The translations under genes and the position numbers were made by a program. 64,000 bases of DNA from Crossaster papposus (lineage: Eukaryota; Echinodermata; Asteroidea; Velatida; Solasteridae), in contig JBAIAA010001508.1 in the NCBI GenBank assembly GCA_037893245.1, forward strand, positions 1 to 64,000, written 5' to 3'. The first letter of the stretch is position 1; each line of letters opens with the position of its first letter. The notes below the pieces were generated by a model that made no database searches, had not been told where the DNA came from, and was given only the letters and a program-made list of their open reading frames with translations. Below are positions 1 through 10,317 of the stretch, one piece after another.

Positions 1-26
1 AATTAATCGGATTAGTCTCTTTCCAT

Positions 27-50
27 TTTGTTTGTTTGTCTGTCTGTCTC
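27..50 (+). repeat. TTTG/TCTG microsatellite
   Basis: About three TTTG units followed by about three TCTG units; same length in each unit as far as seen. A C6-A-C6 tract follows at 65-77. Confidence 0.85.
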
Positions 51-400
51 TTATTTTTTGTTGTCCCCCCACCCCCCAAAATAAAAATAAAAAATTATTT
101 TACTTTTAATACGGTAAAAAAGAAGAAGAGTAATTGCCTGGCCATGTACACAATTGTTTATGCAGTCATTTTGTGTCATATTTTCGAAAACGGGAACTCT
201 TCGTTACATTGGATGATACGCAAGTTTACCCGGCGTTTGGGGAAAAATAAATAAGGAGTGAAACCACACCGGATTGTTGGCCTCTACCGAATATAATAAA
301 AAAGTGGATATTCTAAATTATTGTTTGTAATTGTTTGTTTCTTGGAGTTTTCATTCGGATTCGGAAGGATAGCTTTTGCCCTCTGTGCGTGTGGCAAGCG

Positions 401-528
401 CCAATGCATGTCACTTTGCACGCGTACATAATTCTTCACGCTTGGGTGATTGTGTGGACAATGCGTGTATGCCCAGAATCCTAGCGGGTACCATAAAAGT
501 CGTCCCGGCATGCTTGACCTTCCATTCG
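401..528 (+). promoter_or_regulatory. H2B promoter (CCAAT, TATA-like, start motif)
   Basis: CCAAT at 401-405, TATA-like CATAAAAG at 492-499 and CCATTCG at 522-528. The latter fits the PyCATTCPu cap motif of sea urchin histone genes and lies about 31 bp past the TATA-like element. Transcription probably starts near 524, giving a leader of about 39 nt. I see no perfect octamer here, although H2B promoters of other animals often have one. Confidence 0.7.
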
Positions 529-562
529 ATCGCACGATCACATACACTCATCTTCTCCAATC

Positions 563-931
563 ATGGCTCCTAAAGTTAGCGGAAAAGGCCAGAAGAAGGC
601 CGGCAACACCAAGGCTCCGGTCAGCACGAACAAGAAGAGGCGTCGGCGTCGCAAGGAGAGCTACGGCATCTACATCTACAAAGTCATGAAACAGGTGCAC
701 CCCGACACAGGAATCTCCAGCAAGGCAATGAGCATCATGAACAGCTTTGTCAACGACGTGTTTGAGCGCATCGCCGGCGAATCTTCCCGCCTTGCCCACT
801 ACAACAAGAAGTCGACCATCTCAAGTCGTGAAGTGCAGACTGCAGTACGCCTAATCCTCCCGGGAGAGCTTGCCAAGCATGCAGTCAGCGAAGGAACCAA
901 GGCCGTCACCAAGTATACGACTTCAAAATAG
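563..931 (+). CDS. H2B: Histone H2B, unit 1
   Basis: Core nucleosome histone that dimerises with H2A. The 122-aa protein has a short basic tail (residues 2-33, with SGKGQKKAG and a KKRRRRRK cluster). The histone fold begins around [23 protein letters not shown], and the C-terminal helix ends AVTKYTTSK; Lys117 here corresponds to the ubiquitinated Lys120 of mammals. Only this start gives a normal H2B N terminus. After Met removal the protein begins Ala-Pro-Lys, the XPK motif recognised by N-terminal alpha-methyltransferases. The gene is intronless, as replication-dependent histones are. It is preceded by a CCAAT box (401-405), a TATA-like CATAAAAG (492-499) and a CCATTCG start motif (522-528), and followed by the histone stem-loop at 976-991. 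The tail is shorter than in sea urchin sperm H2B, so this is a canonical somatic or embryonic form. Confidence 0.98.
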
Positions 932-975
932 GTTGACCGAGGGAGGAACAAATAACACGAAAAACATAACCAAAC

Positions 976-991
976 GGCTCTTTTCAGAGCC
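976..991 (+). terminator. H2B mRNA 3' stem-loop (SLBP site)
   Basis: GGCTCTTTTCAGAGCC: a 6-bp stem with a UUUC loop, 45 bp after the stop. This is the canonical replication-dependent histone mRNA end bound by SLBP. The 3' flank is AACA rather than the usual ACCA. It recurs in all 11 H2B copies. Confidence 0.97.
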
Positions 992-1008
992 AACACAATT
1001 TAAAAAAA

Positions 1009-1015
1009 AAAGAGA
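1009..1015 (+). promoter_or_regulatory. H2B histone downstream element (U7 site)
   Basis: AAAGAGA at the end of a 10-A run, 17 bp after the stem-loop. Its position and purine content fit the U7 snRNP-pairing element. It lies further from the hairpin than in the other three genes (11-12 bp), unless pairing uses the A-run. Confidence 0.75.
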
Positions 1016-1790
1016 TGTGACTGTCTGATCTGTGTTACTAATTTAGTCAATATTCGTAGGTGGTAAAATCGTTCGGGTAGTGTTCCCGTCTTTACATTCT
1101 CCCTGACCTTAAAAGGAGAAATGAAGATCAACATTAACCTTCTGTTCTCGTCGCCTTTGAAAACAAATATGTGACTTGAAAAGGCATGACGGGGAAAAGT
1201 ATTTCTGTAGTATTTGGAGTTCTATTGTTTTACACCGTAGTAAAGACCGATTCGTTAGTTTTGCAATGATACCAAAAGTATTTATTTACATCATTTAATT
1301 AACATGATATATACAACATTGCAGGGCTGACAGTGCGCCGCCCAACCTAAGCGATCGAATTTTTAAAACCAACGAATAGCTTTGACCAAAACAATTATAC
1401 GCGTGCCCGCCAACAACGAAATTGACAAATGGGGGTCATTGTTAATTTAGCCTCAGTAAGTCACGTAGGAATTTGCAATGGCGAAACAGCCTTTTGTTAT
1501 TCAGCACCTGTGCGCGCAGTGGTTTTTGTTCATTCAGTCTCCATTACGAGAAGTAGTGGTTTCTTGTTTGATGTATGTTTAATATATGTGTTTGTCGTAT
1601 CTCTGTGCAGACAAATCCGTGACAGTTTTCAATGTGGTTTATGAGGGACGATCTGCGGCCAGCGTGGAGGCAGGTCAATCGGTAGGCAACAGGGACACAC
1701 CGTCGGGATAACAGAAATCGTCTGAGAAAGCAGGTAAGGTTTTTGGGTGCTTTGGGTTTTTGCTGTTATGATTTCATCGCTTAGATTGAA

Positions 1791-1809
1791 GACAGACAGA
1801 CAGACAGAC
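1791..1809 (+). repeat. GACA microsatellite
   Basis: About 4.5 tandem GACA units in the H2B-H2A spacer, about 125 bp upstream of the H2A CCAAT dyad. Confidence 0.85.
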
Positions 1810-1892
1810 CTCGTTCAAAAAATGTATCCCTGTCTTCACGAATCCAAAAATGGATGCGGTGCACTCAACCGTACAGTAAGTGTGTCGCGCGT

Positions 1893-1971
1893 GATTGGCT
1901 ACTTGGCGTGCTTCGGCCAATCCACCGGAACGCTATAACTAGTGCTGTCACCCCCCTCGTACGGCACTTTC
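1893..1971 (+). promoter_or_regulatory. H2A promoter (paired CCAAT boxes, TATA, start)
   Basis: GATTGGC at 1893-1899 and its exact reverse complement GCCAATC at 1916-1922 form a dyad of two opposed CCAAT boxes. A TATA box CTATAAC at 1933-1939 is followed by a probable start around 1966 (GCACTTT), giving a leader of about 45 nt. Two NF-Y-type sites near 50-70 bp upstream of the start is a strong histone promoter layout. Confidence 0.75.
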
Positions 1972-2009
1972 ACTGCAGATCGCAATCTACTGTCACCAAT
2001 TACTTCAAG

Positions 2010-2387
2010 ATGACTGGACGAGGAAAAAGCGGAAAAGCAAGAAGCAAGGCCAGGAGCAGGTCCTCAAGGGCGGGACTGCAGTTCCCCGTGGGTCGCGTTC
2101 ATCGATTTTTGCGAAGGGGCAACTACGCTGAGCGGGTTGGAGCCGGTGCACCGGTCTACCTGGCAGCCGTGATGGAATACCTGACCGCGGAGATCCTGGA
2201 GCTGGCCGGTAACGCAGCACGAGACAATAAGAAGACGAGAATTAACCCTCGACATCTGCAGCTTGCTATACGCAACGACGAAGAGCTTAACAAGTTGATG
2301 AGTGGGGTTACCATCGCGCAAGGCGGTGTGCTTCCCAACATCCAGCAAGTACTTCTGCCCAAAAAGGCCGCCAAAGTATCAAAGTAA
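2010..2387 (+). CDS. H2A: Histone H2A, unit 1
   Basis: Core nucleosome histone, 125 aa, partner of H2B. The reading frame is open upstream to an ATG at 1854, but that stretch covers the CCAAT pair, TATA box and probable cap site. The ATG at 2010 gives the standard N terminus, here TGRGK rather than SGRGK. The histone fold spans about residues 18-97. The acidic patch is complete (mature E55, E60, E63, D89, E90, E91), and the docking-domain segment [13 protein letters not shown] is present. There is no C-terminal SQ(E/D) motif, so this is not H2A.X, and the fold is canonical rather than H2A.Z. Unusual residues relative to common animal H2A are Thr1, Asn78 (RINPRHLQ instead of RIIPRHLQ), Met96-Ser97 and Gln112. 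Histone stem-loop at 2433-2448 and a downstream element at 2461-2468. Confidence 0.98.
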
Positions 2388-2432
2388 TAGGCCTACAAAC
2401 AAATTACTTTGCCTCCACAAACAAAACCAAAA

Positions 2433-2448
2433 GGCTCTTTTCAGGGCC
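2433..2448 (+). terminator. H2A mRNA 3' stem-loop (SLBP site)
   Basis: GGCTCTTTTCAGGGCC. The fourth base pair is a U-G wobble, while the other three genes have Watson-Crick pairs throughout. It is flanked by ACCA. The wobble is fixed in all 10 copies. Confidence 0.97.
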
Positions 2449-2460
2449 ACCACATAGTTA

Positions 2461-2468
2461 CAAGAGAG
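2461..2468 (+). promoter_or_regulatory. H2A histone downstream element (U7 site)
   Basis: CAAGAGAG, 12 bp after the stem-loop and close to the sea urchin CAAGAAAGA consensus. Confidence 0.85.
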
Positions 2469-2500
2469 AAACGCCGCTGTCTGTCTGTTCTTCATTTTTA

Positions 2501-2506
2501 AATAAA
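2501..2506 (+). promoter_or_regulatory. AATAAA downstream of H2A stem-loop
   Basis: A canonical poly(A) signal hexamer 53 bp after the histone hairpin, in an AT-rich context. It could act as a back-up 3' end, or be chance in AT-rich DNA. Confidence 0.4.
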
Positions 2507-3200
2507 GTTTTAAAAGAGACAAATTTAGATAATACATGTGTAGATTTTAACTTTCACAGCCAAAGGCCCGCTGAGTTTGTTCAATGGCTTCGTTTATTTT
2601 TTAAAGAATCGCCTTCCCTTTTCCTGCTTATAAAAATATTAAGAAAGTGTTTTTTGTCATCCGGGCGCGCGTGCGTTTTAACTTGTATCCCGGCGACCTT
2701 CATATAAAAACTAGTTCATTAAATATGCAACGCGCGCACTGTGACTTCAACAAAGCAAAAATAAATACGCGCTGTGTCTGTACTCTATATATACATGTAC
2801 TACGCGTACTGTACAGTACATGCATGTTCAGTTTGTAAAAGTACGTGAATGATATTATACCCGCGACCCAGCACATCAAAATCAAGAATAAGTCGGAAAA
2901 AGACTTTCGGAGATATAAATATAATAAGATTGCAAATTCAATAAGCTTTTTAATGACATCCATCACAAGCCTTTAGCTCGGAAATTATTGGTTACGAGTT
3001 ACAGACTGGGGATGGCTATCAATAGAAAGCCTATGGAATTTCAAATGTTACTATGTACATATCGTGAATTGTCATTTCCCGCTTATTATTGATTTTGATA
3101 TCCTGGGTCACATTTTCATAGATTTAACAAAAACATTGGAAATGTGGTGAGTTGACACTTCGCGTGTGGTCTATTAGCTTTGTTTTCGTGTTCTGTCTTA

Positions 3201-3267
3201 CCTGGGCCCAATTTCATAACAAATGTAAGCACAACAATTTGCTTAGCATGAAACATTTTCCTTGGCC
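3201..3267. mobile_element. Possible dispersed-repeat (MITE-like) fragment
   Basis: The segment runs from CCTGGGCCCAATTTCATA to CTTGGCC. It contains an internal inverted repeat TAAGCA (3226-3231) / TGCTTA (3240-3245), and its ends are loosely complementary (TGGGCC and GGCCA). The wording GGGCCCAATTTCAT followed by GCTTAGCA is, from memory, common in echinoderm genomic repeats. This is recall rather than a search result. Confidence 0.35.
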
Positions 3268-3820
3268 AAACTGAAGATTTCCGAACACGTTTTATTGACG
3301 GTCGTGAATTCTCGTTAACGTTCGCGACTACAATTTCGACGTCTGGGTGTACACAATTAAATGGTCAGGCCATAGAACCAGACTATTTTCACCGCCCACA
3401 AAGTGGGACATTTAGGTTCTGCTTAAAAACAAATAAACCGGCCTGAACGGTAAACGATCGAGGCGCGGTTGTGCCGAAGGGCGCCATCTATCGGCACGCT
3501 CGTACCGGCAGGTCTGTGTGTATTTACAGCGGCGAGGCGCAGTGCAGCATGGCGATAATTTTGATACCAGTCGCATTTTTCCAGATTTTCAAGTGACTTT
3601 TGGTTAAAAAAAATGAATTTGTAAAAGAATATTGTCGATGTGTATGAAAATGTGTTATGAAAACCCCCCAAGCTCATGAATATTGATGTAAATTAACGTG
3701 CCAAAAGTTGGTAATTTCTATAAACGGGTTTGCGTCGGGCTCTGTGAGAAGTCCTTTTCTTGACCCGAAATACACAAATTAGAAAAGTTAAAATAAGAAT
3801 ATTATTCGGATGAGAACAAT

Positions 3821-3883
3821 GGGCGGGGGAATCAATTTGCATGCATAATTCCAGAGCGCCCTATTGGTTCAATGTCAATCGTT
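3821..3883 (+). promoter_or_regulatory. U2 snRNA promoter (GC box, octamer)
   Basis: GGGCGGGG at 3821-3828 and a perfect octamer ATTTGCAT at 3835-3842 (-49 to -42 from the U2 start), with ATTGG (inverted CCAAT) at 3863-3867. No TATA box is present, consistent with Pol II snRNA transcription. The proximal sequence element cannot be named from sequence alone. Sea urchin U2 has its element near -55, and the octamer occupies about that place. Confidence 0.6.
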
Positions 3884-4071
3884 ATCGCTTCTCGGCCTTT
3901 TGGCTAAGATCATGTGTAGTATCTGTTCTTTTCAGCTTAATATCTGAAACGCTGTTCATCGAACAGCCAGTATATTAATCTGATTTTTGGATTTGGGCCG
4001 TGGAATAGAGGCTTGCCTCGTCCCGGCCATGGGTTGGCCCGGTATAGCAGTACATCCGGGATTCGGCCCAC
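3884..4071 (+). ncRNA. U2: U2 spliceosomal snRNA, unit 1
   Basis: U2 snRNA pairs with the intron branch point in the major spliceosome. The 5' end ATCGCTTCTCGGCCTTTTGG matches the near-invariant animal U2 start. The branch-point-binding GTAGTA lies at 3916-3921 (RNA positions 33-38, as expected). Stem IIa pairs 3931-3935 with 3944-3948, and the IIb hairpin GCTGTTC/GAACAGC is at 3951-3967. The Sm site ATTTTTGG is at 3983-3990 and a GAGGC/GCCTC hairpin (stem III) at 4008-4019. The stem IV CCCGG/CCGGG (4038-4060) carries the U2B''-type loop with GCAGTAC. Stems IIa and IIb differ from vertebrate U2 yet stay fully paired, which argues for a functional gene. The length of about 188 nt fits, but the exact 3' end is uncertain by a few bases. 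It sits between H2A and H4 on the same strand. No TATA box lies upstream, as expected for a Pol II snRNA gene. Confidence 0.95.
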
Positions 4072-4097
4072 TCCCCTCGGGGAACATCAATTAATAC

Positions 4098-4106
4098 AAA
4101 AACAGG
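4098..4106 (+). terminator. Candidate snRNA 3' box of U2
   Basis: AAAAACAGG, 27 bp after the likely U2 3' end, matches 8 of 9 positions of the AAARNNAGA half of the metazoan snRNA 3' box, which directs Integrator-dependent 3' end formation. The upstream GTTT half is not clear. Confidence 0.4.
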
Positions 4107-4269
4107 TCTCGTCTATTATGTGTATTCCTATGTCGCCTCACTTTTACAAGTTCTTTCTTCGCTTTACTTCGTGGCTTTCTTATATTTGAACATTTCAATT
4201 TGTCTCAATTAAATAATTGTATGAAGACCGATCTCTTTGTTTTAGGTTGATTTCTGAAGAAAGGGAAAA

Positions 4270-4315
4270 ACAACAACAACAAAAACAAACAAACAAACAA
4301 ACAAACAAACAAACA
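4270..4315 (+). repeat. CAA / CAAA microsatellite
   Basis: Four CAA units followed by about seven CAAA units in the U2-H4 spacer. Copy number looks constant across units, which is notable for a slippage-prone repeat. Confidence 0.85.
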
Positions 4316-4623
4316 GATCCTCTGCGACTGGTTGTATTTTTTTTTGGCGAAGATGTATTAGATTTCTTTATCTTTTCCATATTTTTAGAAATTCATATGA
4401 TTTCATATAAATGTAGACTTTAAATGTTCTTTTTGTTTTTGGTCTTGTTTGTTTGAATTCCATTTTTGTTCTAAATACTGTATAGGTAATAATGCAGGGC
4501 CCTTTTTTATAGCTTTTTTTTTTGTAAGTGATAAAACCTCAAATACAATAAATAACAGTGCTTTTAACAGTTCAGTTTTTATGTTTGTATTTTAATGTTG
4601 CGATTATTCGTTTGCTTGCTTTC

Positions 4624-4640
4624 CTCTCTCTCTCTCTCTC
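4624..4640 (+). repeat. CT microsatellite upstream of H4
   Basis: About eight CT dinucleotides roughly 150 bp upstream of the H4 start site. On the other strand this is a GA repeat, a sequence type bound by GAGA-like factors at insect histone promoters. A role here is speculation. Confidence 0.7.
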
Positions 4641-4709
4641 GTTGACTGTTTATTTCTCCTCTCGTGTCGTTATTTCGGGAGGGAAACCTCTGCCACGATT
4701 TGTTGCTAG

Positions 4710-4795
4710 AGGGCGCCCTGACTTTCGTTTGCCTGGCGTGCTCCTATCGCGTCCGCGCATAGCAGTGATATATAATACACTGCCTCGCCCATTCA
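4710..4795 (+). promoter_or_regulatory. H4 promoter (GC palindrome, TATA, start motif)
   Basis: A 10-bp palindrome AGGGCGCCCT (4710-4719), a TATA box TATATAAT (4769-4776) and a start motif CCATTCA (4789-4795) that fits PyCATTCPu. The leader is about 55 nt and ends in a purine-rich, A-rich run before the ATG. Confidence 0.75.
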
Positions 4796-4810
4796 ATCGA
4801 TCTAGTCTAG

Positions 4811-5158
<348 letters not shown>

Positions 5159-5193
5159 ATAGATGCATGATACATGCCATTTTCAAACCAAAC

Positions 5194-5209
5194 GGCTCTT
5201 TTCAGAGCC
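5194..5209 (+). terminator. H4 mRNA 3' stem-loop (SLBP site)
   Basis: GGCTCTTTTCAGAGCC flanked by ACCA, 36 bp after the H4 stop. Identical in all 10 copies. Confidence 0.97.
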
Positions 5210-5221
5210 ACCACGATTTCA

Positions 5222-5231
5222 CAAAAAGAGA
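5222..5231 (+). promoter_or_regulatory. H4 histone downstream element (U7 site)
   Basis: CAAAAAGAGA, 12 bp after the stem-loop; purine-rich U7-pairing element. Confidence 0.85.
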
Positions 5232-5531
5232 TTGATTCCAGGTTTTAATTTGTGTGTACTCTGTTATTATTTGGGCATTGTCTCGCGGGATTCAGTGTGG
5301 ATTTTCCTCCCTGTGTCTATTAGTATTAAGGTTTTTTTCTTTTCGTTTATTGCCCGTAATTATTCCCGGGATGTCTTTATCGAAGACACGGCCCATTTGT
5401 TTATTTTGGTAGCTGGGGAAAATTAATTTGCTTGCAAAGTATCATGTACTCGTAGGTAATATTGACCGTATTGTTTCGGAGGGTAAATCAGTTGTGATCA
5501 GTGAAGCGTCCCGGCATGGTGTCCGAATTAT

Positions 5532-5621
5532 CCAATCGGAAGACTGCCCATTGTTATACTTCAGCCCCAGGATGCTATTCTCTAGTCTTAAGAGACGGCC
5601 TGTTCGTTGATTTGGCATTCA
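5532..5621 (+). promoter_or_regulatory. H3 promoter (CCAAT, weak TATA, start motif)
   Basis: CCAAT at 5532-5536, TATA-like TCTTAAGA at 5586-5593 and GCATTCA at 5615-5621. The TATA-like element is poor but correctly placed about 28 bp before the start motif. Unit 3 carries a G to A change at the base equivalent to 5598. Confidence 0.6.
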
Positions 5622-5645
5622 CTTCTTATCTACTCTCCATTCTGA

Positions 5646-6074
<429 letters not shown>

Positions 6075-6105
6075 GTCACAGCTGCGTGCGCAAAACTAAC
6101 CGAAC

Positions 6106-6121
6106 GGCCCTTTTCAGGGCC
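6106..6121 (+). terminator. H3 mRNA 3' stem-loop (SLBP site)
   Basis: GGCCCTTTTCAGGGCC, a covarying C-G pair where H2B and H4 have U-A. The 3' flank is AATA instead of ACCA. Confidence 0.97.
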
Positions 6122-6132
6122 AATATTTTTTT

Positions 6133-6141
6133 CAAAGAGAG
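6133..6141 (+). promoter_or_regulatory. H3 histone downstream element (U7 site)
   Basis: CAAAGAGAG, 11 bp after the stem-loop. Confidence 0.85.
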
Positions 6142-6808
6142 ATTCATTCCAATCGCGTTTTCTGTAGAGTTTTGAAAAGTTAAGTTTGGTTACTATAGGT
6201 AAATACGAATTTTAACTGGCCAGAGCTCCGGAGAACGGATTAATAAAATTAATCGGATTAGTCTCTTTCCATTTTGTTTGTTTGTCTGTCTGTCTCTTAT
6301 TTTTTGTTGTCCCCCCACCCCCCAAAATAAAAATAAAAAATTATTTTACTTTTAATACGGTAAAAAAGAAGAAGAGTAATTGCCTGGCCATGTACACAAT
6401 TGTTTATGCAGTCATTTTGTGTCATATTTTCGAAAACGGGAACTCTTCGTTACATTGGATGATACGCAAGTTTACCCGGCGTTTGGGGAAAAATAAATAA
6501 TGAGTGAAACCACACCGGATTGTTGGCCTCTACCGAATATAATAAAAAAGTGGATATTCTAAATTATTGTTTGTAATTGTTTGTTTCTTGGAGTTTTCAT
6601 TCGGATTCGGAAGGATAGCTTTTGCCCTCTGTGCGTGTGGCAAGCGCCAATGCATGTCACTTTGCACGCGTACATAATTCTTCACGCTTGGGTGATTGTG
6701 TGGACAATGCGTGTATGCCCAGAATCCTAGCGGGTACCATAAAAGTCGTCCCGGCATGCTTGACCTTCCATTCGATCGCACGATCACATACACTCATCTT
6801 CTCCAATC

Positions 6809-10129: not shown

Positions 10130-10317
10130 ATCGCTTCTCGGCCTTTTGGCTAAGATCATGTGTAGTATCTGTTCTTTTCAGCTTAATATCTGAAACGCTG
10201 TTCATCGAACAGCCAGTATATTAATCTGATTTTTGGATTTGGGCCGTGGAATAGAGGCTTGCCTCGTCCCGGCCATGGGTTGGCCCGGTATAGCAGTACA
10301 TCCGGGATTCGGCCCAC
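10130..10317 (+). ncRNA. U2: U2 spliceosomal snRNA, unit 2
   Basis: Same sequence as the copy at 3884-4071 as far as read by eye, including the branch-point-binding motif, Sm site and all stems. Confidence 0.95.

Follow-up and report, generated by a model that had tools for sequence, protein, structure and literature searches.

A complete U2 snRNA gene in every unit of a tandem core-histone repeat

Every unit of the core-histone repeat described here carries one complete U2 snRNA gene. The whole stretch of DNA that was analysed (the window, 64,000 bp) consists of 6,246-bp units repeated head to tail; ten of them are complete and nearly identical, and one of the ten measures 6,245 bp. We consider it likely that a functional U2 gene entered the core-histone repeat, was copied and homogenised with the array, and supplies ordinary spliceosomal U2. 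The genes of the first unit and the further copies of U2 are located as follows.

1..6246, forward strand: repeat unit 1 (in the phase of the window), order H2B, H2A, U2, H4, H3, from the ten-unit alignment
563..931, forward strand: histone H2B gene, an open reading frame with a Pfam Histone match; 3' stem-loop at 971-1016
2010..2387, forward strand: histone H2A gene (MTGRGKSG...), inside the open reading frame 1854-2387, with a Pfam Histone_H2A_C match; stem-loop at 2428-2473
3884..4076, forward strand: U2 snRNA gene, copy 1 of ten, a full-length RF00004 match
4847..5158, forward strand: histone H4 gene, an open reading frame whose product is identical to the H4 of locus L001 (see below) at 99 of 103 residues; stem-loop at 5189-5234
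5664..6074, forward strand: histone H3 gene, an open reading frame with a Pfam Histone match; stem-loop at 6101-6145
Starts at 10130, 16376, 22622, 28868, 35114, 41360, 47606, 53852 and 60097: U2 copies 2 to 10, each with the same 193 bases as copy 1

The preliminary description of this DNA had claimed a complete U2 gene in every core-histone repeat and had named the Rfam covariance model of U2 as a check on it. This model (RF00004, gathering score 46 bits) matches 3884-4076 on the forward strand from its position 1 to its position 192 of 192, with 182.3 bits and an E-value of 1.1e-38, and the window holds ten such matches, one per unit and all with this score and E-value, which bears the claim out. 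The start of the gene at 3884 was also confirmed, but the end that had been given for it, 4071, falls five bases short of the model end at 4076, a predicted 3' limit for the mature RNA. The open reading frames of the first unit and the RF00004 coordinates agree in placing U2 after H2A and before H4, in the same orientation as the four core histone genes, as had been described; 1,496 bases separate the H2A stop from U2, and 770 bases separate the model end of U2 from the start of H4. The GTAGTA motif, the Sm site and stems IIa and IIb, which had likewise been pointed out, were all recovered. The stretch GATCATGTGTAGTATC, with GTAGTA and GAUC, is present in all ten U2 copies, and its sole departure from the consensus is at position 30; a 20-base core of the gene containing GTAGTA occurs 10 times in the window, against 0 occurrences in 100 shuffles. 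We take GUAGUA to be the sequence of branch-site recognition and GAUC to belong to the U2/U6 region.

3913..3913, forward strand: U2 position 30, T (U in the RNA) in place of the strongly conserved A of the Rfam consensus, from the RF00004 alignment and in all ten copies
3982..3990, forward strand: Sm site GATTTTTGG in U2, the sole RATTTTTGR match on the forward strand of the first unit

The pairing of the RNA is likewise preserved, as 43 of the 45 pairs of the RF00004 model are canonical (30 agree with the consensus, 12 have both partners replaced and 1 has a single partner replaced), and the two broken pairs lie outside stems IIa and IIb. Twelve double-sided changes, as against a single one-sided change and two broken pairs, argue for a constrained RNA pattern and not a decaying copy; most of the letters that differ from the consensus are weakly conserved in the model, which shows that constraint acts on pairing rather than on letters. 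The fold of U2 has a z-score of -2.77 against 200 dinucleotide shuffles, one of which was equally good. A search of genome contigs with a U2 pattern found three further loci (L001, L002 and L003), with histone genes recognised only in L001. It could be supposed that the working U2 is made at other loci and that the copies in the histone array are variant or decaying ones, whose identity is due to homogenisation alone. The near-identity of whole units, the replacement of A30 by U30 and the lack of a recognisable 3' box would fit such a view; however, the intact pairs and double changes speak against it, as does the fact that, of the 72 letters strongly conserved in the consensus, U2 departs at only three: A30 is replaced by U, U53 by C, and the U of alignment column 163 by A. 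The change to C53 is present in L002 as well. The U2 of the window also scores higher than the U2 of L001 (172.1 bits), the sole other full-length U2 that was scored. On balance, we regard a variant or dying copy as improbable. A retroposed copy was rejected, because the flanks of U2 hold no target-site duplication beyond chance: the longest exact repeat common to both has 5 bases, and 300 shuffles gave 5.9 on average and 10 at most.

The claim that U2 is the same in all ten copies was borne out at 193 of 193 bases, and the U2-to-U2 spacing is 6246 bases in eight of the nine intervals and 6245 in the other. Across the ten aligned units only seven columns vary, one of them inside H2A, where the change is synonymous, and six outside U2 and the four histone genes. 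By proportion, about 0.2 variable columns (7 x 193 / 6246) are expected in U2 and 0 were observed, so the zero variation among the copies is uninformative. The identity of the U2 copies thus reflects homogenisation of the array and says little about selection.

The array itself is a replication-dependent histone repeat, with core histone genes followed by 3' stem-loops and arranged in tandem. The Pfam histone model PF00125 is above its cut-off for H2B, H2A and H3; H4 reaches 23.2 against a cut-off of 26.4 and passes three other histone-fold models. Histone 3' stem-loops over the gathering score number 31 in the window and follow H2B, H2A and H4, whereas the stem-loop of H3, at 30.8 bits, stays below the gathering score of 34. 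Purine-rich stretches were seen by eye 3' of the histone genes.

U2 is the sole extra gene that was found in the core-histone unit. Rfam searches detected neither U1 nor 5S, whether at gathering scores over the whole window or at E-values up to 1 over the first 6,400 bases, and ARAGORN found no tRNA genes in the window. The latter Rfam search, with the relaxed E-value, returned U2 and four histone stem-loops; its one further hit, to CrcZ, was rejected as chance (19.4 against a gathering score of 95, over an AAAC repeat). The H1 of L001, used as a query, found no H1 in the window, although a strongly diverged H1 might be missed in this way: the first 95 residues of the query had no match at E-values up to 10, and a 25-residue match at an E-value of 2.9 lies inside H4, once per unit. 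By eye, there was no H1-like frame among the open reading frames of the first unit. If the array is truly without H1, the linker histone would be located elsewhere. Two side observations concern the spacers. In the one that separates H2B from H2A, at 1600-1740, about 120 bases look by eye like an internal exon, with TCTCTGTGCAG resembling a 3' splice site on one side and CAGGTAAGGT resembling a 5' splice site on the other; at 3204-3245, in the spacer before U2, GGGCCCAATTTCATAA... resembles the terminus of a dispersed repeat known from marine invertebrates.

The snRNA genes that RNA polymerase II transcribes have a proximal sequence element near -55 and a 3' box. Upstream of the U2 of the window, a candidate promoter element was found.

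3835..3842, forward strand: octamer ATTTGCAT, candidate promoter element at -49 to -42 of U2, with a single occurrence in the first unit

The simulated chance of this octamer within 100 bp is about 0.012, a value to be read with the post hoc choice of the motif in mind. We do not claim a vertebrate 3' box, since its consensus is matched at background level: 7 letters agree, as they do in 80% of the unit's 60-base segments. In L001, a common element, CCACATGCAAC..ATAAC, lies before both U2 and U1; it starts at -54 and -55 and agrees in 14 of 16 bases, a match that is within chance according to 60 letter shuffles (mean 11.6, largest 15); its equal position before the two genes is a stronger point than its letter match. 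This element was not found upstream of the window U2, where the best match has 8 letters, against 12 elsewhere in the unit.

The departure at position 30 deserves separate discussion. L001, L002 and L003 all have A at this position. A30 of U2, methylated in vertebrates and in S. pombe, is an m6Am site, and the available part of one paper states that the modification is conserved from S. pombe to humans (PMC7960923); METTL4 is given as the writer of U2 m6Am30 in mammals in what is available of that source and a second one (PMC7960923, PMC9512776). The methylated adenosine of fly U2 is reported in the accessible text as A29 (PMC7324582), and A29 is retained in the window U2; methylation at the neighbouring position is therefore conceivable, and the window U2 may still be methylated at A29, next to U30. 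We also considered whether the histone locus is the main source of U2, with synthesis in the histone locus body alongside histone mRNA and with the methylated A30 lost, so that histone-rich embryonic cells would splice with U2 free of m6Am30, but this appears doubtful to us.

U2 in a histone repeat is already known, though rare, and the window presents a simpler form of it, with U2 alone added. The closest likeness is the repeat of Hydractinia echinata, whose description, as far as the available text goes, gives a unit of 5,998 bp with 5S, U1, U2 and tRNA-Arg, estimated at at least 700 copies per haplotype, and states that its U1, U2 and 5S were transcribed in all stages studied (PMC5011920). 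Both are tandem repeats whose units, some 6 kb long, combine replication-dependent histone genes with U2, and both have a stem-loop and a purine-rich element after the histone genes; the Hydractinia unit, in the text available, adds H1, U1, 5S rRNA and tRNA-Arg, while the window unit has U2 only and H1 was not found in it. The genes of the window all lie on one strand, unlike those of the Hydractinia repeat as described in the same text. The two units are therefore not the same, and we group them by the presence of U2 in a histone repeat. The statement in the preliminary description that histone clusters are sometimes linked to 5S rRNA stands but was incomplete in view of Hydractinia, and the idea of a link between U2 and U7-dependent histone 3' ends was not new, as the Hydractinia authors had already proposed it in the text available (PMC5011920). 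The 5S rRNA-histone repeats of Artemia and an isopod, as far as the sources at hand describe them, also have a small RNA gene in a core-histone repeat, which is 5S and not U2 (PMC5011920, PMC8167085). In oyster, sole, Acropora and Favites, 5S-snRNA linkages place U2 in a tandem multigene array or clone, with no histone genes reported in the available parts of the sources (PMC8167085, PMC9005458), and the Favites authors there hold that the U2 region they cloned belongs to a pseudogene. Among the matches listed, the titles and abstract openings gave no description of U2 in an echinoderm histone repeat, a scope outside which most subscription papers fall.

L001 is a contig (JAOZOU010000036.1, 5.6 kb, 1-5648) in a metagenome-assembled genome (MAG) labelled 'bacterium', but its content is eukaryotic, and we regard its presence there as contamination of the MAG. 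A search of this MAG gave one U2 match and no COX1.

L001, 118-309, reverse strand: U2
L001, 509-672, forward strand: U1
L001, 1323-1441, reverse strand: 5S
L001, histone genes: H2B (reverse), H2A (forward), H4 (reverse), H3 (forward), H1 (reverse)

Like the window, L001 has core histone genes and U2 together, and its H3 is identical to that of the window at 133 of 136 residues; it differs in the added U1, 5S and H1, in the use of both strands and in the head-to-head arrangement of U2 and U1. The contig holds one unit only, and no terminal overlap was found. L001 could be hydrozoan or from another cnidarian, and for this reason it is perhaps not independent of Hydractinia. In L002 (7,656 bases) and L003 (1,838 of 9,838 bases covered), there was no histone stem-loop and no recognised histone open reading frame. 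Viral contigs gave 0 matches to two U2 patterns, and 24 pattern matches to an H2A query, 0 of which were confirmed.

The linkage may also have been selected, in that U2 in the histone locus body would raise local U2 snRNP for U7-dependent processing or tie the dose of U2 to S phase. The original work on U2 snRNP in U7-dependent cleavage is reportedly that of Friend et al. in 2007. Help of U2 snRNP in the U7-dependent processing of histone pre-mRNA is cited as demonstrated in the available part of one paper (PMC9133132), and Cajal bodies are sites where the histone and snRNA loci of human cells come together, according to the accessible text of another (PMC4802181). The linkage of histone genes and U2 also in Hydractinia and L001 is a further point in favour. 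However, snRNPs assemble in the cytoplasm before acting, so local transcription of U2 need not yield local snRNP. In Acropora pruinosa and Favites pentagona, moreover, U2 and histone signals are reported, in the part of the sources available, on separate chromosomes, with the caveat of the Acropora authors that shorter arrays elsewhere might go undetected, and the co-occurrence of U1 and 5S with U2 in Hydractinia and L001 is consistent with small RNA genes hitch-hiking in general. We regard a coupling of doses or a role in the histone locus body, as the preliminary description had suggested, as unlikely.

We favour the entry of a functional U2 gene into the repeat. A working U2 gene would have entered a core-histone unit, we infer once, and would then have been copied and homogenised with the repeat, presumably by unequal exchange and conversion, to give one U2 gene per histone unit in the array. 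Most likely, RNA polymerase II transcribes U2 from a promoter belonging to the gene itself, and the transcripts would supply ordinary spliceosomal U2, whatever their share of the U2 of the cell. Early embryos would need much U2 as well as much histone, and Cajal bodies and histone locus bodies may meet, which would make the linkage tolerable or useful. Against a functional U2 stand the promoter, which is a candidate only, the departure at position 30, and possible other U2 loci, which could supply most U2; its function is supported by the transcription of the histone-repeat U2 of Hydractinia, as described in the available text (PMC5011920).

If the U2 of the window is expressed, the array, together with Hydractinia and L001, would test whether the expression of U2 is tied to that of the histones, as against hitch-hiking in a homogenised array, and since U2 is the sole extra gene found here, U1 and 5S are removed as confounders in this comparison. 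The change to U30 would in turn allow the METTL4 site of U2 to be tested in a natural variant.
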